A stretch of DNA of 64,000 bases. Origin: Mycobacterium sp. HUMS_12744610. Lineage in GTDB: Bacteria > Actinomycetota > Actinomycetes > Mycobacteriales > Mycobacteriaceae. The number at the start of each line of letters is the position of its first letter. The stretch's first letter is position 1. The DNA is taken from positions 81,954 to 145,953 of the forward strand of contig NZ_JBGEDP010000003.1 in the NCBI RefSeq assembly GCF_041206865.1, given 5' to 3'. Below are positions 47,400-61,008 of the stretch, piece by piece. The notes beneath the pieces are model-generated. The model made no database searches. It saw only the letters and a list, made by a program, of their open reading frames with translations, and was not told where the DNA came from. The position numbers and the translations under genes were made by a program.

Positions 47400-48125
47400 T
47401 TAACGTGCGGGATGGTATGCGGCAGTGCGTGTTTCGGGGTGTAGGTAGGGCGGTCGAATTGGCGCGGTGGCGAGTGGGCCGGTCTGTACGGCGGGTTGCC
47501 GGGTGAGGCAGCGTAGCGGCGTTGTCCGGCCGAGTATGCCGGGTTCGTGTTCATGTCCGGCGGCCCATTCGTCGATTTCTGAGGTTTCGGTGATGTGCCA
47601 GTGGGTGACGAGTCCTTCACCGACGCCGCGGTGTTTGCCGATCAAGGGCAGGTCGTCGAGGAGGTCGGCGATGGTGTCCGGATCGCCGACTGCGCGCCAG
47701 GTGAGGAGGGTGGCTGGGTGTGCGATGACGGGGATGATGCGGTTCTGGTAGCGGCCTTTGCGGTCGGAGACGACGCGTCGGCCGATGGTAGGGGCGAGTT
47801 GTTGGAGCCGGTTGTGGTCGGTATGGGCGGTGCGCCAACGGATGTCGGGGTCAATGGTGTCGTGGGAGTGAGGGTGTAGGTCGGCGAAAGTGGCCATCCA
47901 GTGCCAGTCGCTGTCATGGGTGGGGTCACCGCAGCGGGCCAGGGGAAGATCGATGGTTTCCGGGGTGGCATGGTGTTGGTAGGTGAGATGGTGGCCGGCA
48001 GCGCGCGCGGCCCATTTGCGGCGATGCCAGAGCACCGAGGCGAGCAGGCCATCGAGAGCGATGCCCCATGGTTGGGATAGCACGATGCCGTGCGGGGTGT
48101 GCGCGGTGATCTGCAAGGCAATCAT
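47400..48125 (-). CDS. csf3: Csf3 (Cas5-like), type IV-B CRISPR effector subunit
   Basis: 241 residues. The N-terminal strand then IVLSQPWGIALDGLLASVLWHRRKWA (14-39) matches the Csf3/Cas5-type RAMP start with its PxxLDxLLA helix. The rest contains a Gly-rich KHRGVGEGLVTHWHI segment and a Pro-rich tail. In type IV effectors Csf3 caps the 5' end of the guide RNA. Last gene of csf1-cas11-csf2-csf3, 8 nt after csf2. Call rests on motif plus the full operon context. Confidence 0.8.
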   Translation of the reverse strand: MIALQITAHTPHGIVLSQPWGIALDGLLASVLWHRRKWAARAAGHHLTYQHHATPETIDLPLARCGDPTHDSDWHWMATFADLHPHSHDTIDPDIRWRTAHTDHNRLQQLAPTIGRRVVSDRKGRYQNRIIPVIAHPATLLTWRAVGDPDTIADLLDDLPLIGKHRGVGEGLVTHWHITETSEIDEWAAGHEHEPGILGRTTPLRCLTRQPAVQTGPLATAPIRPPYLHPETRTAAYHPAR

Positions 48126-48133
48126 CGGTGTGC

Positions 48134-49009
48134 TTAGGTGAGTTTGGAGAGGGCGGCGATCGCGTCGTCGCGGTGTGCCCTGAGTTCGGCTTCCCAGTCG
48201 ACCGTTTTGTCGGGGAGCTGGCCACGCTCCGCCTCAATCTCGCTGAAGTTGGCGGTGATGTTGCCGTGGCCGGCGGCACGTCGGCCGCCGAGGTGGCCGC
48301 GGCGGCCGAAGGCGCTCAGGACGTCGTGCAGGAACGCGACTTGGTGGCTGGTGGCGTAGGTGATCCGTACCCAGGTCTGCAGGAGGGTTCCGGCGGGGAG
48401 GGTTTCGATGTCAAATCGTCCTAGTGGACTGGTGTTTTCGTCGCGGTCGGTTCGGGGGGATTGGTCGGCGCGGGGGCGGTGGTCGTCCAGGTGTGTGAAC
48501 GATTCCTCGGCGAAGGTGTATACCGCGTCGGGTAGAGGCGTGGTTCGTGGTGGGCGAGGCAGGATGTGGGCCAGTTCGGTGACTTCGGGCAGGACTTTGC
48601 CGACGGTGAGCAGACCGGACATGAGCCTGCCGCTTGCAGCGCCTCCGAACACGGCGATCTGGGGGAGTAGTGCTTTGAGGTGGCGTTCTTCTTCGTCGGT
48701 GAGCGGAGTTGCTGATTTGCCGAGTCGGCCGCCGTTGGTAAGTAAATGGGCGGCGGGAACCGGTAACGCGATGTCCTCGTAGTCCAGGACTGCGGCGGTG
48801 AGCTCCTCTCCGATGCGGCGTAGGACGCCGCGGAAACTGCTGCCCGACAGGATCGGAACATCCAGCAGCTCGCCGTCGGCGGTGATGATCTTTTCGGTGC
48901 GGAACATGGCGGTGGTGTCGGTGCCGGCCGCATCGTTGTCGGAGCCGCGGTGCACGATGGATGACAGGGCCACGATGTCGATGTCCCACCGAATGGTGTT
49001 GAGGGTCAT
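48134..49009 (-). CDS. csf2: Csf2 (Cas7-like), backbone of the type IV-B effector
   Basis: 291 residues of a RAMP protein: DIVALSSIVHRGSDND, then LSGSSFRGVLRRIGEEL (54-70), the helix after the first strand typical of Cas7/Csm3-like proteins, and AFGRRGHLGGRRAAGHGNI near the end as the Gly-rich loop. Several copies would line the guide RNA. ATG 49009 overlaps the cas11 stop by 4 nt. The open frame extends upstream, but only as a shadow of cas11. Confidence 0.85.
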   Translation of the reverse strand: MTLNTIRWDIDIVALSSIVHRGSDNDAAGTDTTAMFRTEKIITADGELLDVPILSGSSFRGVLRRIGEELTAAVLDYEDIALPVPAAHLLTNGGRLGKSATPLTDEEERHLKALLPQIAVFGGAASGRLMSGLLTVGKVLPEVTELAHILPRPPRTTPLPDAVYTFAEESFTHLDDHRPRADQSPRTDRDENTSPLGRFDIETLPAGTLLQTWVRITYATSHQVAFLHDVLSAFGRRGHLGGRRAAGHGNITANFSEIEAERGQLPDKTVDWEAELRAHRDDAIAALSKLT

Positions 49010-49527
49010 GCGTGTTTGGACTTTCGGTCGGCGTCGACGGCCTCTTTGATGATGCGGACTCGTAACAGGAGGGCAGGTAGGCTGCGTTGGAATGCGCGCA
49101 GGACCGGTTTGGGCGGCTCGCGGAGCAGTTCGGCTAGTTCGCGCCTGCGGTCCGGGTAGCGGGGGGCTTGGAGACCTAGGCGTGTGAGCGCGGGTGAGGA
49201 CCACCACTCGTCGAGTGTGACTGACCGGCGGGAGGCGCGGAACACCCGGCCGGGAAGGATTTTGTCCCAATAGTTTTTGAGGTATTTCGGGTCGGTGATC
49301 CAGCTGTTTTCCCAGTCGATGCTGTAGTGCACCAGCAGCAGCAGCCGTTCTGCGGTGTCTTCGGCGCGCCGCAGCGCCGCCTCGGTCTTGTTGAGCTCGT
49401 CGGTGGGGGTCAGGGCATGCAGGTCCGGGACTAGCGCTTGCCAGGCCCGAGTTGGGGTGAGTTCGGTGTCTGCCTCCTGTGGTGGGGGCAGGTCGCGGGA
49501 GTCTCGCTTGCGCGGGCGCGGCGCCAT
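49006..49527 (-). CDS. cas11: Cas11-like small subunit, type IV-B
   Basis: 173 residues, all-helical and charged (NKTEAALRRAEDTAERLLLLVHYSIDWENSW; LRAFQRSLPALLLRVRIIKEAVDADRKSKHA). Small helical subunits lie between csf1 and csf2 in type IV-B operons and line the effector belly. The family has little sequence conservation, so the call depends on fold pattern and position: 10 nt after csf1 and overlapping csf2. Confidence 0.72.
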   Translation of the reverse strand: MAPRPRKRDSRDLPPPQEADTELTPTRAWQALVPDLHALTPTDELNKTEAALRRAEDTAERLLLLVHYSIDWENSWITDPKYLKNYWDKILPGRVFRASRRSVTLDEWWSSPALTRLGLQAPRYPDRRRELAELLREPPKPVLRAFQRSLPALLLRVRIIKEAVDADRKSKHA

Positions 49528-49537
49528 GGCGCAAACC

Positions 49538-50272
49538 CTAGTGGCAGCTCGTGTCGTCCTGGTATGGGCTGGAGTTGTGGTGTGTCGTCGCGTGGGTGAG
49601 GGTGTGAGCGGCGTTCCAGAGTGGGGGGACGGTGCGCCAGGGCTGCACCGCGTTCCAGGCTGCCAGAAATCGTGGCCAGCTCGGTCGTGGTTGACTGGCC
49701 AACAGCGGGAATGGCGGGGCGGGTCGATGCAGGACCGCGGTGGTTGTGCTGGCCAACTGTGGGGGCGGTAGCGGTGTGGTGGCGCGGGACTGAACCCACG
49801 CGGTGACGTTGGGGCGCAAGGTCATGAGATCGGCCAGCCTAGATGCCGCCGTCGCATTCCAGGCGATGACGAGCCCCTCGGTGGCGAGGTGGCCCCATCG
49901 GGCGGTCGGCAGAATGTGTCGGCGGCGCAGGGTCGGTACGACCGCCGCCTGGGTGGCTGGCAGGGGACCGGCGGCCAGTATGGCGGCCAGTGCGGCCGGG
50001 TGCCGGTATTCAGTGACGGTGGTGGCTTCGATCAACATGGCTGGGACGGCCCGGGGCGCGCGGCTGTACACCCACGCGCAGGGCACGCAAAGTCTGCGGG
50101 ATCCGAACGGCCAGGTGTCGAAGCCGGTGAATGCTTCGGAGATGATGCGCGAACTGGGCACCGTGGGGCCGTCGGTTCCGCAGCGCCCGCAGCGGCCCGG
50201 GATCGGCGCGCCGGCGTCGACGTCGGGGCTGCCGGCGAGGACCCAGGCAGCTGCGGCGGGATCAGAGAACAT
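49538..50272 (-). CDS. csf1: Csf1 (Cas8-like, zinc-finger) of type IV-B CRISPR
   Basis: 244 residues with a split CxxC...CxxC site (Cys28, Cys31, Cys62, Cys65: CGRCG and CVPCAW), the zinc-ribbon that defines Csf1, followed by an Ala/Pro-rich helical body with RRRHILPTARWGHLATEGLVIAWN. It is the signature large subunit of type IV systems. First gene of the operon. No CRISPR array, cas1/cas2 or DinG helicase was seen nearby, as expected for type IV-B. ATG 50272 is probably the first base of the transcript. Confidence 0.8.
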   Translation of the reverse strand: MFSDPAAAAWVLAGSPDVDAGAPIPGRCGRCGTDGPTVPSSRIISEAFTGFDTWPFGSRRLCVPCAWVYSRAPRAVPAMLIEATTVTEYRHPAALAAILAAGPLPATQAAVVPTLRRRHILPTARWGHLATEGLVIAWNATAASRLADLMTLRPNVTAWVQSRATTPLPPPQLASTTTAVLHRPAPPFPLLASQPRPSWPRFLAAWNAVQPWRTVPPLWNAAHTLTHATTHHNSSPYQDDTSCH

Positions 50273-50278
50273 GTCGGC

Positions 50279-50284
50279 ACACTA
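50279..50284 (-). promoter_or_regulatory. -10 box of a leaderless csf1 promoter
   Basis: On the - strand TAGTGT is followed by six bases (GCCGAC) and then the csf1 ATG. With a TAnnnT -10, transcription should start on the A of ATG, giving a leaderless mRNA, common in mycobacteria. No SD is present upstream of csf1. Confidence 0.5.
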
Positions 50285-50462
50285 ACGGGTGTATCCGGCG
50301 GCTGGTGGTTGGTAGCGTGGCGGGCACGAAATGCATACAGGGGTTGGGTGAAGGTGTCACCTGAGGCGGCCCTGGGCGCGGCTGACAGCAGCCGACTCCT
50401 GGGGCCGCCTTCCCACTTTGCGGGGCTGGGCGCGGCGCCCCGGAACTATCTGGAGTGGCTCG

Positions 50463-50468
50463 TAGACT
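50463..50468 (+). promoter_or_regulatory. -10 box of a leaderless promoter for the gene at 50475
   Basis: TAGACT, six bases, then ATG 50475: the same geometry as csf1, pointing the other way. No SD is visible. The 200-bp region between 50273 and 50474 thus carries two divergent leaderless promoters; nothing else is seen in it. Confidence 0.5.
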
Positions 50469-50474
50469 CGCCCG

Positions 50475-51359
50475 ATGGGCGCCAAAACCGCCAGACCGAA
50501 CCGGGAACCGGTGGTGGTTGACATCGAGGGTGGGCTGGTCACATCGCGTGATGTGAAGGCAGCGCGTGAGGTCGTCGAGTCGGCGATGAGTGACCGCGAC
50601 TTCATCCGGTTGGCCAACCGGATAATCGACGAGGCCCGCGACACCGACACCTCTGCGACGCGGGCGGCTCGTGATCGTGACCGGGCCACTCCCCGCGACG
50701 TCAGCCGCGTCGACTCCGATCGGCTACGCCAGGAGTTGCCCGCACCTGAGGAATTCCGGCCGGCTTTGAGCGCGCGGCAGCGAAAGCTGCGCTCGGCCAC
50801 CAAAAATCGCGTGATTGCTGCGGCGCCTGCTACGCAGCGGCGCGCGTTGCAGACCATGCTGGGCGACGAGGACCTGGGTCGGTGGCGGCGGGTGAACTTT
50901 GCGTTGCACCGCGCGGCCGGTGATGTTCAGCAGCTCGACGTCGCGGATCGGACCGAAGTGCAGCGCCTGGACCGCATGATCCAGTCTTATGAGGACATCA
51001 ACGACCGCCGCCACCGGGTCTATGTGGCCGTCGCCTTGCCTGACACCCACCCGGATGTGAGCAGTATTGAGAATCTGCCGGGCAATCTCGTGGCGGGGTC
51101 TGTGGTGTCGTTCGACCAGTTCACTGTGACCCGGCACAACCTGCACGAAACACCCGGGCACGACAGTCACCGCCATGTCGTGTTCGAGCTGGTTACCGGC
51201 CGCGGCATGTATCTGGGGCGCTCGGACACGGTGGAAGACACCACCCATCTGCTTCCCCGCGGTATGCGATGCCGAGTGGTGTCTGCCGAATACGCGCCGT
51301 ATGCAACAGGTTCCGGTGGCTTCGGTGAACGGTTGGTCCTACAACTCGAGGAAGTGTGA
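50475..51359 (+). CDS. Unknown protein with possible ADP-ribosyltransferase-like C-terminus
   Basis: 294 residues. The N-terminal 180 are helical and charged. The C-terminal 115 show VYVAVALPDTHPDV... GNLVAGSVVSFDQFTVTRHNL... VVFELVTGRGMYLGR... THLLPRGMRCRVVSAEY. That order (start strand, 'G..v....f.sts', strand plus Gly-rich turn, 'llPrG..f.V') resembles the ART/exoenzyme fold; the catalytic R-S-E set is not clearly complete, so this is tentative. First gene of the unit divergent from csf1 and leading to the CysH-like gene. Confidence 0.6.
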   Translation: MGAKTARPNREPVVVDIEGGLVTSRDVKAAREVVESAMSDRDFIRLANRIIDEARDTDTSATRAARDRDRATPRDVSRVDSDRLRQELPAPEEFRPALSARQRKLRSATKNRVIAAAPATQRRALQTMLGDEDLGRWRRVNFALHRAAGDVQQLDVADRTEVQRLDRMIQSYEDINDRRHRVYVAVALPDTHPDVSSIENLPGNLVAGSVVSFDQFTVTRHNLHETPGHDSHRHVVFELVTGRGMYLGRSDTVEDTTHLLPRGMRCRVVSAEYAPYATGSGGFGERLVLQLEEV

Positions 51360-51366
51360 TGCGGCG

Positions 51367-51804
51367 ATGAGCGCTGAATTCGTGGTGCACCCGAACCGGT
51401 CGCAGATCGGGCCCGATACGGCGGGCCAAAATGGGCATTTCCGCTCGGTGAGCCGGCCGCGGCGTCCGGTGGCGGTATCGGTGTGTCTGGCCCGCGTGCA
51501 GTTGCCGACCGCGCTTGCCGAACATGGCGACCCTGACGGGTCGTTAACGTTCGGAGGCATGAATTGGCGGTTCGTCGTCGGTGCGGCCCGCACGTTCGCC
51601 CGCGCCCACACCGACCTCGAGGTGGTGCCGCCCCCGTTTGGGTTCAAACGCGACGGTCTGTGGTGGTGGTGGGATGACACCACCAGCGAGGAGTCCATTC
51701 TGGAGGGCGCCGAGGCCGCTGGCTACGTCACTGAATACCTAGAGCTGTTGTTTCCGGGGATGCCGATCACGGTCACCGACAACCGCCATCCGGTTAGCCG
51801 GTAA
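51367..51804 (+). CDS. Hypothetical protein of the CysH-like unit
   Basis: 145 residues: a short N-terminus, then LARVQLPTALAEHGDPDGSLTFGGMNWRFVVGAARTFARAHTDLEVVPPP and a Trp-rich turn (DGLWWWWDDTT). Compact alpha/beta pattern, no family recognised. ATG 51367 follows the previous stop by 7 nt and the stop lies 4 nt before the CysH-like start, so the three + strand genes form one unit. Confidence 0.6.
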   Translation: MSAEFVVHPNRSQIGPDTAGQNGHFRSVSRPRRPVAVSVCLARVQLPTALAEHGDPDGSLTFGGMNWRFVVGAARTFARAHTDLEVVPPPFGFKRDGLWWWWDDTTSEESILEGAEAAGYVTEYLELLFPGMPITVTDNRHPVSR

Positions 51805-51808
51805 CCGG
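51790..51808 (+). promoter_or_regulatory. Hairpin abutting the CysH-like start codon
   Basis: CCGGTTA-GCCGG-TAACCGG: a perfect 7-bp stem covering the upstream stop codon and ending one base before ATG 51809. It occupies the place where a SD should be, so it may limit initiation or make it depend on ribosomes arriving from the upstream gene. Confidence 0.45.
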
Positions 51809-52642
51809 ATGAGTGGATCGGTGGGCATGGATATGACCGCGTTGCGGGCGATCGCGGCGCGCCGACGCGGCGGCGGGTATCGGCCGTTGCTGGATCGGAT
51901 CGCGGCCCATCTCGAGCTCCATGACGGGTTCGTGTCCTGGTCGGGAGGCAAAGACTCCACCGTCGTGGTGGATCTGGCTCGTCAGGTGGACCCGAACGTG
52001 CCGGTCGTGTTCTTCGATTCGGGGCTACAATTCCCGGAAACCGTGCGGTATTTGGAAGACATGGCTCACGCGTGGCGGCTGAACTTCACCGTGGTACCCG
52101 CCGAGCCGGACCTGTTGACCGTGATGGTCGCGCTAGGGGGATTCGATCACTACGCCCCGGACCGCTCACTGGGTGTCGAGTTGTCTGAGTTGATGATCAC
52201 CGGCCCGGCCGCCACAGCCCACCGCCGCCACGGCCCGGGATCACTGTGGGGGGTGCGCAGCCAAGAATCCCACGGCCGGGCGATGCTCTACCGGCACCAT
52301 CTGGCCACCCATACCCGTGCACACCAGCACAATTCACGCGACGCGGTGCGCGCCGAGCACGGCGGCACAGTGCACCGGGTTGACGGCACCGTGAGTTACG
52401 GGCCGATTTGGGACTGGCAGCCTAGGCAGGTATTCGAATACCTGGCCGGCCGCGGGATCGAACCCAACCCGCTGTACCGCAAACTCGCAAAGCTTGGAGT
52501 GCCAGCCGGCCACATCCGTGTCGACTCCATGATCGACGCCTCCAAACTATCGAACGGGCACCTGGCGTTTCTGCGCAAAGGATGGCCGACGCTGTTCTCG
52601 CAATTGGAGATCGCGCTGCCGCGGCTAACCGAGTGGGCCTAA
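51809..52642 (+). CDS. CysH-like PP-loop ATPase without cysteines (type IV-B associated)
   Basis: 277 residues of the PAPS-reductase/N-type ATP pyrophosphatase fold: VSWSGGKDSTV with the PP-loop Ser45-Ser50, then PVVFFDSGLQFPETVRYL, WGVRSQESHGRAML and YGPIWDWQPRQVFEYLAGRGIEPNPLY. The protein contains no cysteine, so it cannot be a sulfate reductase (no catalytic Cys, no Fe-S ligands) and more likely adenylates another substrate. CysH-like genes recur beside type IV-B csf operons, here 1.5 kb from csf1. Start could be Met7 or Met9 instead. Confidence 0.85.
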   Translation: MSGSVGMDMTALRAIAARRRGGGYRPLLDRIAAHLELHDGFVSWSGGKDSTVVVDLARQVDPNVPVVFFDSGLQFPETVRYLEDMAHAWRLNFTVVPAEPDLLTVMVALGGFDHYAPDRSLGVELSELMITGPAATAHRRHGPGSLWGVRSQESHGRAMLYRHHLATHTRAHQHNSRDAVRAEHGGTVHRVDGTVSYGPIWDWQPRQVFEYLAGRGIEPNPLYRKLAKLGVPAGHIRVDSMIDASKLSNGHLAFLRKGWPTLFSQLEIALPRLTEWA

Positions 52643-52722: not shown

Positions 52723-53505
52723 TCAGTCGTCGACCGCGATGAGTACTGGTTGGCCCGTGGTGGCCTGCAGGGTGTGTGCACGGCGGGCGGCGGCGATGCG
52801 GAGGGTCCAGATCGGATAGGCGTTATTGTGCGGGCGTTGAACCCGTGCCTGTGGATACTGGTTTTCGAATTCCTGCTGGTCGTCGATGATCCAGATGGTG
52901 TGAACGCCACCCTGGGCGCTCACCTTGAGGCTGGCGGCGGTGTCGACGATGAAGTCATCGACAGCCTGTAGGTCGGTCAGCGCGGCACGCGGGGGTTTGA
53001 GTCCGCGTTCGGTATCGGCATATGAGCTGACGTTGAGCCCCAACAGTTGCGCTGTTTCGGTCCTGCCCAGTCCGACCGCCAGCCGGGCGGCCATCAGCTC
53101 GAAGGCGCGATCGCCGCGATGCACCGCGACGTCACGTCCTCGGCGGCGAAGCTCAGCGGCGGCACGTCCCACCGCAACGTGCTGTAACGACACCGGATAC
53201 GGGTTGCGGTCACGGCGGGTGTGTGCCGCTGGGTATCGCACGGTGAAGGTGTCCTGGTCGGGGACGGCCTGCAGCACCACGGTGCCCTGAGCGCACGCCG
53301 CAGCAACCAGCCGTTCGGTCTCCCCGGCGACGAATGCTTCCATCCGGATCAATTCGCCGACGAGGTATGCGCCGATGTAGCCGTGACCGCCTGCTTCGAT
53401 GGCTTTGTACCTGCTCGTGCTGAGCTCGAGCAGCGGGGCGATGTCTTGCGGCCACAGGCTTAGCGCGCTGCGCCGCGCTTTGAGATCCGACCGGGAGTAC
53501 CTCAC
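52723..53505 (-). CDS. Regulator made of two tandem HTH units
   Basis: 260 residues formed by an internal duplication. Each half has a Cro/XRE-type helix-turn-helix (ALSLWPQDIAPLLELSTSRYKAIEAG near 14-39; LAVGLGRTETAQLLGLNVSSYADTERG near 140-167) followed by a strand-rich part with a matching ending (YPAAHTRRDRNPYPVSLQHVAVGRAAA and YPQARVQRPHNNAYPIWTLRIAAARRA). A covalent dimer of a DNA-binding unit is implied. GTG start with GAGAAG upstream. Converges on the CysH-like gene; target unknown. Confidence 0.7.
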   Translation of the reverse strand: MRYSRSDLKARRSALSLWPQDIAPLLELSTSRYKAIEAGGHGYIGAYLVGELIRMEAFVAGETERLVAAACAQGTVVLQAVPDQDTFTVRYPAAHTRRDRNPYPVSLQHVAVGRAAAELRRRGRDVAVHRGDRAFELMAARLAVGLGRTETAQLLGLNVSSYADTERGLKPPRAALTDLQAVDDFIVDTAASLKVSAQGGVHTIWIIDDQQEFENQYPQARVQRPHNNAYPIWTLRIAAARRAHTLQATTGQPVLIAVDD

Positions 53506-53752
53506 GACCGGCTTCTCGCGGCGCCCCCCTCATTGACCGCTGCAGGCCTCACAGCTGGCATTGCGGCACTCGTCACGATCGTTCCTCTCCCTCTACCGGA
53601 GAACCGCGGCCCGCCGTGTTGGCATGCCGCGCGTGCGATCCATGTTAGCAGCGGCCACGCGCGAGTCGGGTGTGGATGTGGCGGTCTGGGGGCTTTCTTC
53701 ACCGCTTCGGAGGGCGGCCCGATGGAGTCGGGCCGGCTCGGCGCGCCGCCGA
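53506..53752. other. Non-coding gap before the phage-like accessory region
   Basis: About 250 bp between the duplicated-HTH regulator and the terminator at 53753. It should contain the regulator's promoter on the - strand. No convincing gene; a 93-codon + strand frame crosses the terminator and is rejected. No other structure noticed. Confidence 0.4.
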
Positions 53753-53791
53753 CCTCCACCCCACCCCGTCCATTACGGGGTGGGGTGGAGG
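53753..53791. terminator. Perfect 16-bp stem terminator with TCCATTA loop
   Basis: CCTCCACCCCACCCCG (53753-53768), loop TCCATTA, and its exact complement (53776-53791). Strong enough to stop transcription in both directions. It insulates the first copy of the shared promoter-leader cassette from upstream. The CCCCGTCCATTACGGGG core recurs at 59213-59229. Confidence 0.85.
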
Positions 53792-53831
53792 AGACGTTAA
53801 ACCCTTGTGACTAGGGACTTTTCGGGACAAT

Positions 53832-53916
53832 TTGTCGGTCCACTTGACTAGAATTGTGAATTGGAAGGCTTACCACTCCGGTGAGCCTCACTACCCGGTG
53901 AGGGGTGCTATCTGTT
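53832..53916 (+). promoter_or_regulatory. Shared promoter-leader cassette, copy A (amidoligase)
   Basis: TTGTCGG at 53832-53838 and TAGAAT at 53849-53854 (11 nt between TTGTCG and TAnnnT). A stem-loop GGCTTACC-ACTCC-GGTGAGCC follows at 53867-53887. Then CCCGGTGAGGGG carries the SD in a small hairpin, followed by the gene start at 53917. The same parts at the same spacing stand before three other genes (55852, 59397, 60346). Confidence 0.75.
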
Positions 53917-54786
53917 ATGCCGTCATCTGTTTATTGCGAAAGCTGCGATTGCGAAGTCGATCCCGACTACGACGATTATTGCGGATCGTGCTGTGAATGG
54001 CGTTGCCAGGACTGCGGCCCGTGTCGGGGGTGCCGCCGAGACAGCCGGGTTCATTCCTACGAGTACCGACCCGCAAGTTATCGGCCCAAAGGCGATTATC
54101 AGACTCAGACGCTTCTCGGCGTCGAGCTGGAAGTCTGTGGTGCACAGTCGACTATCGCAGACGTTGTGAGCGGTCTGGACGGCGTCGAACACCACTTGTA
54201 CATGAAGCTCGATGGCTCGATTAACGGCGTCGAGATCGTCACCCATCCCATGACGTTGGCATGGGCACGTAGCTACCCGTTCGCGGCGCTGCTGGGCGAT
54301 CTGCGTGGTGCCGGATGCAGCGTCGACGACGGCTACGGACTGCATGTTCATGTGTCGCGCAACGCATTTCGACGAGAAGGAAAGCAATCGGCGGCACATC
54401 AAATGATGTGGCTGTTATTCCTGTATCGCAACTGCGCCGAGTTAGAGGTGCTGGCCCGCCGCCGCTCGGATGAATACGCGGCATTTCATAAGCCGGTACC
54501 CGGCGAGTTGGCCGGTAAAGCGAAAGCGATCCAGCGCGGCGACCGCTACGTGGCGGTCAATTGCAATAACGACAAGACATTCGAGTTGCGATTTTTCAAG
54601 TCGACGCTCGACGAGCGAGAGTTTTACGCCGCTGTCGAGTTCGCCGACGCCAGTGTGCGCTACACGCGGTCGATCACATTGCAGGACGTATTACGCGGTA
54701 AGGCGATCGGATGGCGGCATTTCAGTGCATGGGTCAAGCGCCATAACTACCGGCATCTGTCATCGGAAATCGCTGTCTGCGCGTAG
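53917..54786 (+). CDS. Amidoligase-family enzyme with N-terminal Cys-rich domain
   Basis: 289 residues. Ten or more cysteines in residues 7-39 (CESCDCE, CGSCC, CQDCGPCRGC) suggest zinc binding. From about 66 the chain shows GVELEV (68-73), SINGVEIVTHPMT, GYGLHVHVSR and NCNNDKTFELRFFKSTL, the markers of the putative amidoligase (COOH-NH2 ligase, glutamine-synthetase-like) family of phages and plasmids, thought to join amino groups to carboxylates of peptides or wall material. ATG 53917 follows the GAGGGG SD; GTG 53905 is less likely. A class II glutamine amidotransferase follows. Confidence 0.8.
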   Translation: MPSSVYCESCDCEVDPDYDDYCGSCCEWRCQDCGPCRGCRRDSRVHSYEYRPASYRPKGDYQTQTLLGVELEVCGAQSTIADVVSGLDGVEHHLYMKLDGSINGVEIVTHPMTLAWARSYPFAALLGDLRGAGCSVDDGYGLHVHVSRNAFRREGKQSAAHQMMWLLFLYRNCAELEVLARRRSDEYAAFHKPVPGELAGKAKAIQRGDRYVAVNCNNDKTFELRFFKSTLDEREFYAAVEFADASVRYTRSITLQDVLRGKAIGWRHFSAWVKRHNYRHLSSEIAVCA

Positions 54787-54827
54787 CCGTCCGTTTTATC
54801 TCACAGATTTTGAAGGGTTCACGCATC

Positions 54828-55616
54828 ATGTGCATTTTGAGTTATTTACCGCCGGGCACACCGGCCGATGTTCACGGTCTATTCAACGGCGGCGCGAACA
54901 ATCCGGACGGTCACGGCTGGGCGATTGTCGCAGGCGAGGAAATCGTGTCGGCCAAGTCACTAGAGCTGGTCGACGCCCTCGATGAGTTTGTGGAGGCCCG
55001 CGAACGCTATCCGGACGGCCCCGCGCTGTTTCACAGCCGCTGGGCCACACACGGCAGTGTGCGTGTCGACAACGTGCACCCGTTCCTGGTGGGCGGGTCG
55101 CGGCGAACGGTGGTCGCGCACAATGGCATCTTGCCCAAGGGGGCGCACCCGCTGGCCGGGGACGACCGGTCGGACACCCGTAAATTTGCCGAGGAAATCT
55201 TGCCGCGCCAGTACCGCAGGTTGGATCGGGCCGGGGTGCAGCGAGCGTTGTCGCGGTGGTGCGGGCTGGGCAACAAACTGGTCATCCTGACGGTGGACCC
55301 GCGCTACCGGAATCATGCCTACATCGTCAACGAGGACGCCGGTCAATGGGACGCCGCGACCGGGATTTGGCACAGCAACGACGATTACGTCCATTACCCG
55401 AATTGGTCGCAGCTGGGTACATCGCCGGCAAGGGCCGATAGTCCCGGTCGGTGTGGTGACGTGTGCGCGGTCTGTGGCTACGGCCTGGCCGACGCGCACG
55501 GGTACTGCGACTCGTGCCGGTCGTGCCAGGACTGCTGGGAGGACGTCGGGACATGTATGTGCTGGAATCGCAGAGCCATGCCGTCGGACGACTATCGGCA
55601 GTCGATCCGGCCCTGA
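54828..55616 (+). CDS. Class II glutamine amidotransferase with C-terminal Cys-rich domain
   Basis: 262 residues starting Met-Cys2, the N-terminal nucleophile of Ntn-type glutamine amidotransferases. It has GANNPDGHGWAIV, LFHSRWATHGSVRVDNVHPFLV and VVAHNGILPKG as in that family. The last 60 residues are Cys-rich (CGDVCAVCGYG, CDSCRSCQDC, CMCW), echoing the Cys-rich domain of the amidoligase upstream, so the two may dock through related zinc modules. It would supply ammonia to the amidoligase. Start is placed so that Cys becomes residue 2; 41 nt separate the two genes. Confidence 0.82.
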   Translation: MCILSYLPPGTPADVHGLFNGGANNPDGHGWAIVAGEEIVSAKSLELVDALDEFVEARERYPDGPALFHSRWATHGSVRVDNVHPFLVGGSRRTVVAHNGILPKGAHPLAGDDRSDTRKFAEEILPRQYRRLDRAGVQRALSRWCGLGNKLVILTVDPRYRNHAYIVNEDAGQWDAATGIWHSNDDYVHYPNWSQLGTSPARADSPGRCGDVCAVCGYGLADAHGYCDSCRSCQDCWEDVGTCMCWNRRAMPSDDYRQSIRP

Positions 55617-55679
55617 CATAGCCGCTGTGCTGCCGGGGAGGCCGGGACGTTTGCGCCCGGCCTCCCCGGGCTAGCCGGC

Positions 55680-55739
55680 AGACGACCCCACCACCACCCA
55701 CCCCGCCCATTACAGGGGTGGGTGGTGGTGGGGTCGTCT
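55680..55739. terminator. 25-bp perfect-stem terminator
   Basis: Arms 55680-55704 and 55715-55739 are exact complements (GACGACCCCACC... against ...GGTGGGGTCGTC) with loop GCCCATTACA, ending in TT. It closes the amidoligase-amidotransferase unit and shares the CCATTA loop word with the terminators at 53753 and 59213. One of the strongest hairpins in the window. Confidence 0.9.
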
Positions 55740-55769
55740 TGAACTAAGGTATCTGCCTGCTGCATCGTT

Positions 55770-55851
55770 TTGTCGGTGGTGCTGGGTAGAATTGTTGTTG
55801 TCGGGCATGCCAATTCGGCGAGCCCCTGATCCCGGTGAGGGGAATGTAGTT
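55770..55851 (+). promoter_or_regulatory. Shared promoter-leader cassette, copy B (rIIA-like)
   Basis: TTGTCGG 55770-55776; TAGAAT 55787-55792 (11-nt spacing); stem GGGCATGCC-AATTC-GGCGAGCCC at 55803-55825 with one A-A mismatch and one wobble; ATCCCGGTGAGGGG at 55829-55842; ATG 55852. Closest to copy A around the -10 (TAGAATTGT in both). Confidence 0.75.
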
Positions 55852-57906
55852 ATGCGTATTGCTGAAGCGAGTTCGACGTTGGTCGGCGCTGGTGTGGGGT
55901 TGCCGACGATGACGAGTCGGGTAGACCCGCAGGGTGCGCGCCGCATGATGGAGATGTTGGTCAATCTGTATGCCGACCGGCGTCTGGCGGTGGTGCGTGA
56001 GTATGTGGCCAACGCGGTCGATGCCACGCGGGCGGCAGGCAGTGATGAGCCGGTGGCGGTGACGACGCCGAGTCTGGTGGAGCCAAATTTTGTGGTCAGC
56101 GACCGGGGTACCGGGATGTCGTGCGCGGAAGTCGAGGCAACGTTTCTGGCGTTCGCAGCGTCGAGTAAGCGGGACAGCAACGAGTTGGTCGGTGGTTTGG
56201 GTGTCGGCGCGAAATCGGCGTGGACGCTGGCGGAGTCGTTTCTGGTGGACACGGTCAAAGGCGGATGCCGCACGACGGTGCGAGCGGCCCGCAATTTGGA
56301 GCACCAGGTGTTGTTGGCCGACGCGCCAACCGATCTGGCGGATGGGACCACGATCATCGTTCCGGTTGAGGTGGCCGGGCACGTGGAGGCGTGGCATCGG
56401 GTAGTTCGCGAGGTCGCCGCTGCCCACGACGCGGGCGCGGTGCTGGTGGACGGTGAGCCGGTGGATAGCTTGGCCGGTGGGCCGAACTGGGTTGGGCCGG
56501 TGTGTTTCCGCCGTGTTGAGCGCCCGGATCGCGGTGTGGTCGTGGTGCGCAGCGGCGGGACGCTGTTCTCGTCGGTACCCGAGGTTACGTCGCGGGTGAT
56601 CGACGGTATTGGCAGGGTGTCGGGGTGCGTGATCGAGCTGCCGATCGGGTCGTTCGATCACACTCCGAGCCGCGAATCGGTGATCGCCACCGAGCGGACT
56701 CTGGCCGCCGTGGATGCCGCACTAGGGCGTTACCGGATTGCGTATGAGGCGCTAGCGCAACGGATCACGGAGCTGGCGGACCGCGATGTCGCAGGCGCGG
56801 TGGCGTTGCGCGCCGACACGTTGGCAGGGGTGGGCGAGGCATCGATGCTGCCGATCCCGCTGCGGGTGCGTGTCCCCGGTGGGACCGAGGAGTGGGTCGT
56901 GCGCCACGGGCGCGGCGGCCGTGCCCGCTGGGAGCGGGTCACCGATGTGCGTGACGATCTGTTTGATGCGGTGTCGGTGCCTGCTGAGATGAGCCGCACA
57001 CTGGTGGTTAGCGGTGTTCCGGCGGGCCGGGTGTTGTCGCGGTTTGCCACGTTCGTCGCCCAAGAGCATCCCACCGTGGCGCGGGTGGTGGCGTTGCCGG
57101 AAGGCCGCAGTGCGCTGGCGCTGGATGTGGTGCGGCCCGGAGATCAGGCGAGTGGGCAGACCTGGCAGATCAGCATGGGCTCCGAAGGGTTGGGGGGCCG
57201 CTACAGCTACGAGCAGTGGCGGGCCGCGCTGGCCGCTGGACGTAGCGTGCGCGGGCCGGTCACGGGCTATGACTGCGACGTCTGCCACCGCGACGGGGCG
57301 GGGCGGTGCTCGGCAACGCTGAGTGGGCCGCAGATCGCCGCGCTGGGTCTTCCGGTCATCTATGTCGAGGACAAGCGCCCGTATCGGTCGTCGAGCGGGC
57401 AACTCGCGATCGCGTCGGTGACGGTGTATTTGGGCAAACGCAAAAGCGGGCCGCTGCTGGCGGCGGTGCCGCAGGCGATGACCAGCAGTGCGTGGCTACA
57501 GCGGCGATTCGCTACCGAGACTGCCGGATGGTCGCAGACCGAACTGCTGGCTGCGGCCTACACGTGCGCGTCTGAGTCGATCTGCAAGGCCGCGTTCGAG
57601 ATCGCGGCCTCAGCTGCCGCCTTGAGCGCGCCGGGGCATCCGCATCGGGCACTGCTGACACGGATCGGCGCGCTGGTGCGCTCGGCTGAGACCGTAACCG
57701 AGGCCCAGAGTGCGACCATGCGGGCGCTCAGCGGCTGCCCAACCGCGCAAGAACAGTTTGCCGAGATCAGGACGATGAGCGGCGAGCTGCGCCAGGCTTA
57801 CCCGCTGCTTGCTCATGTGCGGCGATGGGACAACGCGGCAATTCGGGAGCACTACGTGGCGTATGTGGCACACACGCCGCCGCAGACGGCACGCACGGCG
57901 GCCTGA
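55852..57906 (+). CDS. T4 rIIA-like GHKL ATPase
   Basis: 684 residues. A Bergerat (GHKL) ATPase domain occupies the first 230: N-box REYVANAVDA with Glu50 and Asn54, DRGTGM (Asp84, Gly86, Gly88) and GGLGVGAKSAW (114-124). Later parts include an S5-like domain with FDHTPSRESV and a Cys pair region (CDVCHRDGAGRC). This is the organisation of phage rIIA-type proteins, and an rIIB-like gene follows. In T4 the rII pair affects lysis inhibition and exclusion; the role in a plasmid is unknown. ATG 55852 is set by the leader's SD. Confidence 0.82.
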   Translation: MRIAEASSTLVGAGVGLPTMTSRVDPQGARRMMEMLVNLYADRRLAVVREYVANAVDATRAAGSDEPVAVTTPSLVEPNFVVSDRGTGMSCAEVEATFLAFAASSKRDSNELVGGLGVGAKSAWTLAESFLVDTVKGGCRTTVRAARNLEHQVLLADAPTDLADGTTIIVPVEVAGHVEAWHRVVREVAAAHDAGAVLVDGEPVDSLAGGPNWVGPVCFRRVERPDRGVVVVRSGGTLFSSVPEVTSRVIDGIGRVSGCVIELPIGSFDHTPSRESVIATERTLAAVDAALGRYRIAYEALAQRITELADRDVAGAVALRADTLAGVGEASMLPIPLRVRVPGGTEEWVVRHGRGGRARWERVTDVRDDLFDAVSVPAEMSRTLVVSGVPAGRVLSRFATFVAQEHPTVARVVALPEGRSALALDVVRPGDQASGQTWQISMGSEGLGGRYSYEQWRAALAAGRSVRGPVTGYDCDVCHRDGAGRCSATLSGPQIAALGLPVIYVEDKRPYRSSSGQLAIASVTVYLGKRKSGPLLAAVPQAMTSSAWLQRRFATETAGWSQTELLAAAYTCASESICKAAFEIAASAAALSAPGHPHRALLTRIGALVRSAETVTEAQSATMRALSGCPTAQEQFAEIRTMSGELRQAYPLLAHVRRWDNAAIREHYVAYVAHTPPQTARTAA

Positions 57907-57968
57907 GCCGAAGCGCATTTAGCACAGAACATCGAAAAACCAACGACAAGAACAGGATTCACACAACC

Positions 57969-58904
57969 ATGTATGCACTCATTGATGACCAGTCGATCAT
58001 TGTGTTCGAGGGCGCGGCCAGCGTGCTGATCGGCGCTGCCGATCCCACCTACAGGCCGGTGCGCCGCTACTTGCTCGATGAGCATGGAGAGGATTTCACC
58101 GCCGTGCAAGATCTGCTTGAGCAGTTCCGTACAGGCGTGAAAGCCGCTGCGGCCCAGGCGGTATCAGTGGTAGACGGTGACACCGACACGCGCGGCTGTG
58201 AGCCGTACCGGATCGTCCACGGTGACCCGGTCGAGGAGGTTGTGCTCGCGGCGGCGATCCGGCTGACCAACAGCAACGCCGACCTGGCTCCGCTGGGAGC
58301 ATTTCTGCGGCGGCTGGAACGCAACCCATCGCAGGCGTCCCGCTCGCAGCTGTTCGGGTGGCTCAAGGCAGGTGGGTTCACCCTGACGACCGATGGCTAC
58401 ATCGTCGGCTACAAGTCGGTGCGCGGCGATGGCCGCTCGGCGCATGCGGGGCGTGAGCCGGTCACGGTGGTCCATCAGGACGGATCGGTGGAAACAGTCA
58501 CTGGCCGTGTGCCCTACCCGGTCGGGGCCACGGTGTCGATGGACCGCGACCTGGTCGACGATGACCGGGATTCGGCCTGCTCGGTTGGGATTCATGTGGG
58601 CACCTTCGGGTACGCGATGACGTTCTGTGACGACATGCTGGTGGTGTTGGTCGATCCCGCCGATGTGGTGTCGGTGCCCACCGACTGCCGGGCGCAGAAG
58701 ATGCGAGTATGTCGGCTGTTCGTGGCGGCCCGCCACGACGGCGACCAGATCACCGACGCGGTGATTGAGCACATCCGTACCGTCCCTGATTTCGACGCCA
58801 CCGAGGACTACGCCCGCCGCCCGGAAAACACCCCGGCGCGTGCGTTTGGGGTTGCGGTCGGCCTGGGCGGCCCGGATGTCGATGTCGCCAGTGACGCGGC
58901 GTGA
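57969..58904 (+). CDS. T4 rIIB-like protein
   Basis: 311 residues. The hallmark RSQLFGWLKAGGFTLTTDGYIVGYKSV (about 125-151) and CSVGIHVGTFGYAMTFCDDMLVVLVDPADVVSVPTDCRAQKMRVCRLFV are characteristic of RIIB-family proteins. It begins 62 nt after the rIIA-like gene and has no promoter cassette of its own, so the pair is co-transcribed. ATG 57969 is chosen; the longer frame would run back into rIIA. Function outside T4 is not defined. Confidence 0.82.
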   Translation: MYALIDDQSIIVFEGAASVLIGAADPTYRPVRRYLLDEHGEDFTAVQDLLEQFRTGVKAAAAQAVSVVDGDTDTRGCEPYRIVHGDPVEEVVLAAAIRLTNSNADLAPLGAFLRRLERNPSQASRSQLFGWLKAGGFTLTTDGYIVGYKSVRGDGRSAHAGREPVTVVHQDGSVETVTGRVPYPVGATVSMDRDLVDDDRDSACSVGIHVGTFGYAMTFCDDMLVVLVDPADVVSVPTDCRAQKMRVCRLFVAARHDGDQITDAVIEHIRTVPDFDATEDYARRPENTPARAFGVAVGLGGPDVDVASDAA

Positions 58905-58945
58905 GGGGGATTAGGCGATGACATCGTTGACGAGTCTGAAGGGTT

Positions 58946-59137
58946 GTGCTTGACGGCTTTCGGGAAGCATTGGGGAGGCGTGTACCTGCGGTGAGGTGGA
59001 AGCGTGACGACGCGTCGGCCCAGTGTTGGATTCAGAAGCACTCGCTCGAGGATGACTGCGGCGATCTGCACTGCCGATGTGTGCAGTGCTATCCGCACGT
59101 GCACAGCGATAGGCGGGAGCTGACCGCCCAAGGGTGA
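58946..59137 (+). CDS. Possible small Cys-rich protein
   Basis: 63 residues from GTG 58946, with a C-terminal zinc-site-like pattern (CWIQKHSLEDDCGDLHCRCVQC). No clear SD (GAAGGG is 5 nt away) and no family. It lies between rIIB-like and a terminator, where a third gene of the unit could sit. May be spurious. Confidence 0.3.
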   Translation: MLDGFREALGRRVPAVRWKRDDASAQCWIQKHSLEDDCGDLHCRCVQCYPHVHSDRRELTAQG

Positions 59138-59173
59138 GCGTCGATTCCCGCGACGGGGGATCGGTGATCCGGT

Positions 59174-59236
59174 GCGGGGTGGTGTTCGTAATGGACGGGC
59201 ACCACCCCGCCTCCCCGTCCATTACGGGGTGGGGTG
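59174..59236. terminator. Double hairpin terminator after the rIIAB-like unit
   Basis: The first stem GCGGGGTGGTG/CACCACCCCGC (59174-59184 with 59200-59210) encloses the word CGTAATGGACGGG, the complement of the usual loop. The second stem CCCCG-TCCATTA-CGGGG (59213-59229) repeats the core of the terminator at 53753 exactly. The two together look like an inverted pair of the same element. Confidence 0.75.
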
Positions 59237-59314
59237 AAAGTGCTCCACGTGGTGGGCGATTTTAGGCGCTCCTCCTCCTCGTGTCCGATTGGTTGCGGCC
59301 CTTGGAAGTGGGTG

Positions 59315-59396
59315 TTGTCGGTGTCTGCGCCTATCATTGGTGTTGTGAGGCTTGCCATTTCGGCGGGCCCGTGATCCCGGTGAGGGGAGATGGAAG
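59315..59396 (+). promoter_or_regulatory. Shared promoter-leader cassette, copy C
   Basis: TTGTCGG 59315-59321; TATCAT 59332-59337 (11-nt spacing); stem GGCTTGCC-ATTTC-GGCGGGCC at 59349-59369, pairing kept by two G-U pairs; ATCCCGGTGAGGGGA at 59374-59388; ATG 59397. Confidence 0.75.
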
Positions 59397-60056
59397 ATGG
59401 GTCAGTATTACGCGCCGGTCATTATCGGCGGCGATGGAAGTTCTGGGCCGCGGGCGCGGTGGTGGTTTTCTGCGCACATGTACGGCAATGGCCTGAAGTT
59501 GATGGAGCATTCCTATGTCGGGAATGATTTCGTTCGGGCGGTGGAGACGTTTTTGCGTCTCGACGGCGGTATGCGGCTGGTGTGGGCTGGCGACTACGCC
59601 GATCCTGAGCCTGACGGCCGGAATCTGTGGCGGCACACCATGACCGAGACTGGTGATGATCACGACTACTCGCGCTGCGTGGCGATCTCCTCGGCGTTAG
59701 AGCCGCTATATCCGGGCTATGAGTCCACGCTAGAACGGCTGGCGGCGATGAGCCATCGGGTCGAGGTGGAGTTGGCCAGCGATGCCGAATGCCGCTACGT
59801 GGTCAATCTCGACACCGAGCAGTACGTCGATACGGAGTCGGCGCCGCAGGCCGAGCCGTGTTGGGAGGCACGGATTCATCCGCTGCCGTTGTTGACCTGT
59901 GAGGGCAACGGTCGTGGCGGTGGGGACTATCACGGCACACCTGCGGTGATCGGGGCCTGGGCGCGGGCTCGCGTAACGGTGAGCGCTCGGGCGCCGCAGG
60001 GATTCGCCGAGCTCGATTTCGCCGCCGCGCTGGCGGGTGCGGAGGTGCGACAGTGA
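59397..60056 (+). CDS. Phage-type hypothetical protein (MGQYYAPV... family)
   Basis: 219 residues. The start MGQYYAPVIIG and the segment YGNGLKLMEHSYVGNDFVRAVE recall a small conserved group of phage and plasmid proteins of unknown function. An alpha/beta domain of about 140 residues is followed by a strand-rich tail (SHRVEVELASDAECRYVVNLDTEQYV; GAWARARVTVSARAPQG). GAGGGGAG lies 8 nt before the ATG at the end of cassette C. Confidence 0.65.
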   Translation: MGQYYAPVIIGGDGSSGPRARWWFSAHMYGNGLKLMEHSYVGNDFVRAVETFLRLDGGMRLVWAGDYADPEPDGRNLWRHTMTETGDDHDYSRCVAISSALEPLYPGYESTLERLAAMSHRVEVELASDAECRYVVNLDTEQYVDTESAPQAEPCWEARIHPLPLLTCEGNGRGGGDYHGTPAVIGAWARARVTVSARAPQGFAELDFAAALAGAEVRQ

Positions 60057-60160
60057 CGGCGGGGCCGGGTGTGGGCGCCTATGTGGTGCTCGGCTCCGGC
60101 GTCACCGGCGCCGAGGGGTTGGAGGATGCCCGTCGACGGCGGAGGTGCGCGATATTCGAC

Positions 60161-60189
60161 GGGGCTGGCCGACCGAGCCGGCCAGCCCC
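60161..60189. terminator. 10-bp perfect hairpin terminator
   Basis: GGGGCTGGCC (60161-60170), loop GACCGAGCC, GGCCAGCCCC (60180-60189). It ends the preceding unit before cassette D. A further imperfect CGCACCC/GGGTGCG pairing follows at about 60194-60239, with an inner AGCAA/TTGCT stem. Confidence 0.7.
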
Positions 60190-60264
60190 CACGCGCACCC
60201 CTCATTAAGCAAACATGATGGTTGCTCACGAAGGGTGCGGATGAGCTTATGGGGCTCCCGACGT

Positions 60265-60345
60265 TTGTCGGAGGGGTGGAGTAGCTTTTGTGGTGTGGGG
60301 CAAGCCATCCCGGCAGGCCCGTAATCCCGGCGAGGGGAGATATTC
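60265..60345 (+). promoter_or_regulatory. Shared promoter-leader cassette, copy D
   Basis: TTGTCGG 60265-60271; TAGCTT 60282-60287 (11-nt spacing); stem GGGCAAGCC-ATCCC-GGCAGGCCC at 60298-60320 with two internal mismatches; ATCCCGGCGAGGGGA at 60324-60338; GTG start 60346. The most diverged copy, yet all parts and spacings are kept. Confidence 0.72.
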
Positions 60346-60930
60346 GTGGTTAGCAAAGTTGGGTCTCCGGTGGTGGATCGGATGCGCATTCCTGCCGGGG
60401 TGGTGACGCGGTCGCTGATCGTTGTACGTCCAGTTGAGGGACACGTGTCGGTGCACGACGCGCGCACTGAGCTGGCGGTAGTGGCGATGCAGTGGGGCGA
60501 TATCTTGATGCGGTTCACCTCGGCGGCCCAGGTATGGGAAGTGCTGGCGGCGTTCGTCGCGGTGCGCGAGGCGCTGCGCGGCGTCGAGGGGACAGTGCCC
60601 GCGGATCATGGCGGTAGTGATGAGTGGCCGTGGTTGTCGGTGTTGTCGGTGACCTGGACGCGGCCCCCGGAGTGGTCGGTGGTGCCTCAGGAGCGTTTCG
60701 ATGCTCGGCAGCGGCGCACGGTGCACTGGGTGGATGTGCATATGGGGCCGGTGCTGTGGCGGGTCGTTGATTGGGCGGGTTATGAGGCGGCACTGGTGTT
60801 GCTGCGTAACGTGCACCGGACAGCTGTAGCGGTCTTCGCCGATGGAGGCAAGTTCCGTACCGATCCCTCGAAGCTGGATGCGTTCAGCGAAGCGCCGTGC
60901 AACGGCCAGAGGCTACGCACCGGAGCGTAG
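60346..60930 (+). CDS. Hypothetical protein under cassette D
   Basis: 194 residues from GTG 60346: strand-rich start (RSLIVVRPVEGHVSVHD), a helix-containing middle (AAQVWEVLAAFVAVREALRG), then WPWLSVLSVTWTRPPEWSVVP and RRTVHWVDVHMGPVLWRVVDWAGYEAALVLLRNVHRTAVAVFADGGKF. No family recognised. Start set by GAGGGGA in the cassette. Confidence 0.6.
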   Translation: MVSKVGSPVVDRMRIPAGVVTRSLIVVRPVEGHVSVHDARTELAVVAMQWGDILMRFTSAAQVWEVLAAFVAVREALRGVEGTVPADHGGSDEWPWLSVLSVTWTRPPEWSVVPQERFDARQRRTVHWVDVHMGPVLWRVVDWAGYEAALVLLRNVHRTAVAVFADGGKFRTDPSKLDAFSEAPCNGQRLRTGA

Positions 60931-61008
60931 CCCGCCGTCGCAGTCTTACGCCGGGTTGGTTTTCACTTCTGCAAGGTGTTCGTCCTGGGTGTGCGGGCTG
61001 AGCATTTA

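Follow-up and report, generated by a model that had tools for sequence, protein, structure and literature searches.

What controls phage-like genes that lie in separate units on a mycobacterial plasmid? The question is raised by a 64,000-nucleotide stretch of contig C3 (NZ_JBGEDP010000003.1) from Mycobacterium sp. HUMS_12744610 (genome G000; positions 81,954 to 145,953, hereafter the window), the right end of which coincides with the contig end. A sequence-only reading of this DNA had proposed that four copies of one promoter-leader cassette, each consisting of TTGTCGG, a TAnnnT box, a stem-loop, and a Shine-Dalgarno (SD) sequence, precede four gene units there. All four were found where they had been placed. 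A covariance model (R1), built from 21 copies including the window's four, scored them at 80.3 bits (55768), 75.8 bits (60263), 66.8 bits (59313), and 58.6 bits (53830), and the next model-spanning match in the window scored 13.5 bits. Since R1 was trained on the four window copies among others, it is the copies elsewhere that carry independent weight, and by this recurrence the pattern is beyond chance. The cassettes, together with a partial fifth copy that had been overlooked, are as follows.

53832..53908, + strand: cassette 1, with TTGTCGG at 53832-53838, TAGAAT at 53849-53854, and stem arms at 53866-53874 and 53880-53888, before the amidoligase-like gene at 53917
53894-53905, + strand: SD motif of cassette 1, CCCGGTGAGGGG
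55770..55845, + strand: cassette 2, with TTGTCGG at 55770-55776, TAGAAT at 55787-55792, and stem arms at 55803-55811 and 55817-55825, before the RIIA-like gene at 55852
59315..59390, + strand: cassette 3, with TTGTCGG, 10 nt, TATCAT, and stem arms at 59348-59356 and 59362-59370, before the gene at 59397 (phrog_3156)
60265..60340, + strand: cassette 4, with TTGTCGG, 10 nt, TAGCTT, and stem arms at 60298-60306 and 60312-60320, before the gene at 60346
53587..53632 (read from 53632 to 53587), - strand: partial fifth copy (24.8 bits), comprising the hairpin and SD part with an upstream TAACAT -10-like box and without TTGTCGG, before a helix-turn-helix (HTH) gene

A recurring promoter-leader cassette

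In each of the four window copies, TTGTCGG and TAnnnT are separated by 10 nt rather than the 11 nt first proposed, and the promoter pattern with an 11-nt gap and 2 mismatches gave 35 matches versus 24.1 expected. The SD-bearing sequence ATCCCGGYGAGGGG, thought to be shared by all copies, is exact in three, but cassette 1 reads TACCCGGTGAGGGG; this motif alone, with 3 mismatches allowed, had 28 window matches versus 25.7 expected, which is not above chance. The stem, proposed to be 8 to 9 bp long, spans nine positions. Cassette 1 pairs at all nine (one U-G), cassette 3 pairs at eight with an A facing a C at the outer end, and cassettes 2 and 4 contain one and two internal mismatches, respectively. 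The predicted minimum-energy fold includes the stem in every one of the four window leaders, but it includes the small hairpin said to hold the ribosome-binding site only in cassettes 2 and 3, and not in cassettes 1 and 4.

Across 396 genomes of the genus, a cassette match at an E value of ≤0.01 was detected in 39, of which 18 reached ≤1e-6; at most 12 candidates were scored per genome, and copy numbers per genome are lower bounds. In 57 chosen sources, R1 returned 162 matches at E ≤ 0.01, a count that includes near-identical plasmids (L007, L077) and sources taken twice. Among 175 cassettes (150 aligned and 25 others), 166 were followed by an open reading frame (ORF) and 9 were without one by the rule used; in 163, the start codon lay -5 to +9 nt from the model end. 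The downstream products formed 35 protein clusters, 21 with at least two members and 14 singletons, some of which are perhaps not genuine genes. Cluster representatives matched DUF4192, MoxR-type ATPase, DUF4262, methyltransferase-helicase, DUF3560, zeta-like kinase, DNA ligase, and DpdA, in addition to RIIA, RIIB, and amidoligase; matches to DUF3846 and a beta-clamp domain fell under the curated cutoff. Of 19 representatives scanned, 9 were without any Pfam match at E ≤ 0.01. The search of mycobacterial plasmids and phages suggested by the sequence-only reading succeeded for the plasmids; no cassette was found in phages with two cassette queries, and 13 viral contigs picked by pattern (12 + 1 loci) gave no model match at E ≤ 0.1. 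A literature search found no paper on the cassette. The four cassettes belong to a wider family. A regulon built on one recurring control unit, as first envisaged, is well supported, but it is much larger than four units. One control sequence preceding several operons is what is expected of a plasmid establishment regulon.

Contig C3 (145,953 bp) is a linear plasmid, as its terminal inverted repeats show (697 bp at 99.9% plus 1,543 bp at 99.7%). Terminal repeats were also seen on this genome's contig C2 (250,868 bp; ∼715 bp at 92.7%) and on G277:C3 (393 bp at 83%). R1 detected four complete cassettes on C3 and ten on C2, and no match better than an E value of 0.1 on the chromosome of this genome. 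Nine contigs of more than 100 kb carry 67 copies, counted in retrieved stretches that in some cases are less than the whole contig; 63 of these copies point to the nearer contig end, and 60 are no farther than 30 kb from it. A consensus scan of four whole plasmids, which overlooked the divergent cassette 1, found 31 copies, every one pointing to the nearer end and within 30 kb of it. In G341, a weak cassette match and the regulator gene described below are both on a 6.4-Mb contig. As a side observation, telomere-like palindromes at the ends of C3 (positions 1 and 145953) contain GGGCGGGCAAGCCCGCCC, similar to the leader stem arm GGGCAAGCC, possibly by chance.

Selection on the leader stem

The best 150 of the 162 matches were aligned, yielding 139 distinct leaders on which pairs were counted. 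The seven stem pairs comprised 897 Watson-Crick, 62 G-U, 3 A-C, and 9 other combinations with 2 gaps, and cells altered on both sides numbered 59, versus 26.3 ± 4.0 when shuffled and at most 8 in slid structures; these pair and covariation counts lean on a structure-fitted alignment. Pair 44/69, for example, was GC in 122 leaders, AU in 10, GU in 5, CG in 1, and UA in 1, with zero mismatches. Two counts made without bias to G-U gave G-U to A-C ratios of 68:17 and 40:9. At the fifth stem position, an A-G mismatch with A on the 5' side was kept in 124/139 leaders, and the first loop base was A or G in 138/139. The stem lies within the minimum-energy fold of 127 of the 139, and the stretch 3' of it folds better than the shuffle mean in 126. 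Given the compensatory changes and the kept A-G mismatch, selection of the stem as RNA, as had been proposed, is well supported; the absence of covariation that would have spoken against the sequence-only reading was not observed.

If the hairpin were instead a DNA dyad, it would be an operator directly downstream of the transcript start. Such a role has precedent in Aca1 and Aca2, which bind promoter-overlapping inverted repeats in DNA according to the available part of one study (PMC8434428). However, all three counts show more G-U than A-C on the sense strand, a bias not favored by a DNA duplex, and the mismatch is asymmetric; we consider a DNA dyad improbable. An Frpo hairpin, a single-stranded-DNA promoter, forms in the template strand and itself carries the -35 and -10 elements, whereas here G-U pairing is on the sense strand and the -10-like box is outside the hairpin. 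Promoters of this kind precede early leading-region genes of F-like plasmids in the excerpted literature, yet that our elements are such promoters, acting during plasmid entry, seems barely credible.

A third explanation leaves the box as both DNA operator and promoter, with the 5'-terminal hairpin just stabilizing the mRNA and keeping the ribosome-binding site open. It would fit the retention of the box on plasmids with different hairpins (see below), and the pLS20-family paper, in a figure legend, interprets a pair of short inverted repeats in p576 as elements that most likely act on half-life (PMC8708921). A stabilizer, however, needs pairing and not near-fixed sequence, of which the A-G mismatch and the loop purine are instances, and the candidate regulator's gene retains the hairpin mostly without the full box. 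We regard mere stabilization as unlikely, if far from negligible.

A candidate regulator and how the cassette may be read

Beside the cassettes lies a gene whose product may recognize the leader.

52726..53505, - strand: body of the candidate regulator (260 aa), a tandem HTH duplication, the N-terminal half having a predicted Aca2 fold

In the predicted structure, this N-terminal half combines an HTH with the fold of the Aca2 C-terminal domain. The regulator was detected in 15 of the 18 strong-cassette genomes (E ≤ 1e-6) versus 1 of 378 others, and no homologue was found in the phage collection. Its own gene carries the hairpin at 14 of 17 loci by the model, with the full box mostly absent by eye. 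Given this co-occurrence, the hairpin-bearing leader, and the predicted fold, the tandem HTH protein is a plausible candidate, and a good hypothesis, for the one regulator of the regulon.

Comparison among plasmids suggests that box and hairpin are two modules. With hairpins compared by eye, the box (TTGTCGG, 10 nt, TAnnnT) was seen at gene starts with other hairpins in Gordonia (L182, four weak matches) and on other mycobacterial plasmids (M. chimaera AH16, L179, four; M. paragordonae, L177 and L178, three), and R. jostii pRHL3 (L183) has one weak site. All four records of this plasmid set contain a csf3-like match. The hairpin is common to the regulon and the candidate regulator's gene, and divergent regulators go with different hairpins while the box is unchanged. 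On the evidence of few plasmid groups, these observations favor the hairpin as the target of the regulator and the box as a promoter element. Separately, hairpin-less box-like promoters were noted at L077 17596 (+) and L108 7832 (+), each adjoining an opposite-strand cassette, and by eye the box contains a direct repeat of CGGT at 10-bp spacing. At L179 2606 (-), a small annotated ORF lies behind a group-specific hairpin without TTGTCGG; this hairpin may correspond, among plasmids of that group, to the regulator leader.

Our preferred reading, which we judge to be nearly evenly poised between right and wrong, is an establishment-type regulon in which the box is the promoter and the hairpin is the RNA operator of the plasmid's tandem HTH protein with the Aca2 fold. 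Transcription from TTGTCGG, 10 nt, and TAnnnT would, by spacing, start a few nucleotides before the nine-position stem-loop, and the ribosome-binding site would follow, often inside a small hairpin. The regulon would consist of phage-like and probable host-takeover or anti-defense genes, mostly near mycobacterial plasmid ends. In established cells, the regulator would bind the stem-loop and repress translation, perhaps also transcription via the box, and may control itself through the hairpin behind its degraded box. Entry into a regulator-free cell might then release a burst of regulon expression until the regulator accumulates. Gene names and position suggest the establishment role, the link to anti-defense coming from family names (RIIA/RIIB, amidoligase, DpdA, methyltransferase-helicase, and several DUFs). 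A broader version, possible but held with more doubt than confidence, is a post-transcriptional regulon spanning the plasmid: a double-Aca2 fusion would read one RNA hairpin before tens of unrelated genes near linear plasmid ends. Each plasmid group would have the same promoter but a hairpin and a regulator of its own, which could allow separate control of plasmids that share a cell.

Several observations weigh against the establishment-type regulon and its candidate regulator. Folding energies of the window leaders are ordinary (z scores of -1.93, -0.79, -0.54, and +0.31), three of the four lying within one standard deviation of their own shuffles. With Foldseek alone, the best match had an E value of 3.6e-3 and none reached 0.001, while searching solved structures with a profile gave no significant Aca2 sequence match, the best being HTH only at an E value of 0.13. 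In the window, the regulator frame is interrupted near its start: in 53505-53576 (-), the ORF that starts behind the leader (GTG at 53576) stops after 24 codons, and the 260-aa body follows in a different frame, overlapping it at GTGA. In aligned relatives, the frame is continuous at this site. G087, G263, and G289 lack the regulator, as do 20 of 21 weaker-cassette genomes, and in the plasmid records with other hairpins, its homologue is not preceded by the hairpin of its own group. In a Mantel test on 15 of 21 plasmid groups, one with 48 residues of CysH only, hairpin divergence tracked the regulator (r = 0.35) no better than the neighboring CysH (r = 0.36; partial r = 0.08), and box and regulator divergence correlated at r = 0.34; specific coevolution of hairpin and regulator is therefore not supported beyond plasmid ancestry. 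As to position, five plasmids were tested for terminal repeats and three had clear ones (G281:C2 had weak matches and G087:C5 none), and several relatives' records are given as circular. Of the 67 copies, seven are farther than 30 kb from any contig end: three on G164:C2 (180 to 182 kb) and one on G245:C5 (196 kb) face inward, and three on G034:C2, ∼51 kb from its end, face outward.

Genes of the window, the type IV-B locus, and known systems

The window cassettes stand before the following genes.

53917..54786, + strand: Amidoligase_2-like protein (phrog_22302)
54828..55616, + strand: GATase_4-like partner (phrog_25883; Pfam match under its cutoff)
55852..57906, + strand: RIIA-like GHKL ATPase (phrog_612, E = 2e-49)
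57969..58904, + strand: RIIB-like protein (phrog_609, E = 1e-36)
59397..60056, + strand: unknown protein (phrog_3156), with a homologue on the genome's second plasmid that is also behind a cassette
60346..60930, + strand: unknown protein without a Pfam, NCBIfam, or PHROG match, with homologues on other mycobacterial plasmids

Upstream of each cassette is a GC hairpin.

53754..53790, + strand: terminator-like GC hairpin upstream of cassette 1
55681..55738, + strand: terminator-like GC hairpin upstream of cassette 2
59203..59236, + strand: terminator-like GC hairpin upstream of cassette 3
60161..60189, + strand: GC hairpin upstream of cassette 4

Hairpins of -25 kcal/mol or better lie upstream of 96 of 136 cassettes versus 22 of 139 random sites. 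An Rfam 15 scan of window positions 53600 to 61000 gave nothing reaching a gathering score, the lowest E value coming from a microRNA model that matched the GC hairpin upstream of cassette 2. The put and nut elements are processive antitermination sites, and a leader of that kind would let polymerase pass terminators, in keeping with its 5'-terminal position and these strong upstream hairpins. However, each window unit comprises one or two genes and has its own promoter, so read-through would be redundant, which makes antitermination very improbable here.

On its other side, the candidate regulator adjoins a type IV-B CRISPR-like locus.

47403-52639: type IV-B CRISPR-like locus (csf/cysH), with Csf3-like and Csf2-like genes under NCBIfam cutoffs, a RAMP match above that of Pfam, and a CysH-like gene
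50305-50425, + strand: conserved small RNA candidate between the two halves of the csf/cysH locus, bearing a -10-like box of its own and, on the 3' side, a strong hairpin

Genes similar to csf3 were found in 68 plasmid records, 49 of them from Rhodococcus. A model of the small RNA (R2; nine sequences from five positive genomes of the scan and three plasmid records) matched exactly the csf3 genomes among the 396 (19/19 versus 0/377), although in G189 and G293 the small RNA and csf3 are on different contigs. The RNA is also present in L177, L179, L184, and L186 and was not clearly found by R2 in Gordonia L182 or Rhodococcus L183; it has no Rfam match. Near its expected 5' end is ACGAAAC (ACGAAAT in the window copy), which we take to resemble the 5' handle of type III CRISPR RNA. 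Since papers on the type IV-B complex state, in the portions available, that its natural RNA is unknown, the small RNA is a candidate for that RNA; a literature search found no paper on this type IV-B small RNA. The cassette leader might itself be a ligand of this ribonucleoprotein, given that a cassette match (E ≤ 0.01) occurs in 17 of 19 csf3 genomes versus 22 of 377 without csf3. Against this stand the separate small RNA in every csf3 genome, a 5' part of that RNA no more complementary to the cassette than its shuffles (six plasmids), and strong cassettes without a csf3 match in G254, G355, G087, and G263, three of which are assemblies in more than 200 contigs where csf3 may have been overlooked. 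We view such a ligand role as extremely improbable.

Among known systems, Aca2 reportedly represses via both promoter DNA and RNA stem-loops in the 5' untranslated region, a stem-loop leader. The candidate here is like Aca2 (PMC8434428, available part) in the fold of its N-terminal half and in being an HTH regulator whose gene bears its own control element. Unlike Aca2, it has two copies fused in one chain without a significant sequence match, and tens of gene families here contrast with a single acr-aca operon. As in the Bacillus p576 (EGeRS2, Reg_p576) and pLS20 family, several probable anti-defense operons share one upstream control sequence, and where the p576 repressor regulates itself less strictly than its targets, in the text available (PMC8708921), the candidate regulator gene likewise carries a weaker version of the element, keeping the hairpin with a mostly degraded box. 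The differences are that the conserved element includes an RNA stem-loop, that the candidate is a tandem HTH rather than a ribbon-helix-helix protein, and that the window plasmid is linear, with most copies near contig ends.

The comparison drawn by the sequence-only reading with cluster K mycobacteriophages holds as an analogy and no further. Their start-associated sequences (SAS) also adjoin the start codons of many unrelated genes (PMC3203893, in part). However, the 13-bp SAS GGGATAGGAGCCC is not in the leaders (one 2-mismatch window match, at 33337, versus 1.52 expected), the cassette was not found in the phages searched, and the genes lie on a linear plasmid. The cluster K paper, in the sections available, finds little to suggest that the ESAS repeats pair as RNA (PMC3203893), whereas the leader stem here covaries. 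A conserved early promoter of archaeal viruses similarly marks early counter-defense genes and an Aca with one regulatory sequence, but it is an archaeal promoter, and the part of that report at hand does not mention an RNA leader (PMC11065993).

For mycobacterial plasmids, the cassette offers a simple way to look for unknown genes of host takeover or anti-defense, any gene behind one being a candidate, and a testable candidate regulator is now available for plasmid genes of obscure role. If the proposed control is true, the RNA-binding mode reported for Aca2 would extend from single phage operons to plasmid regulons.

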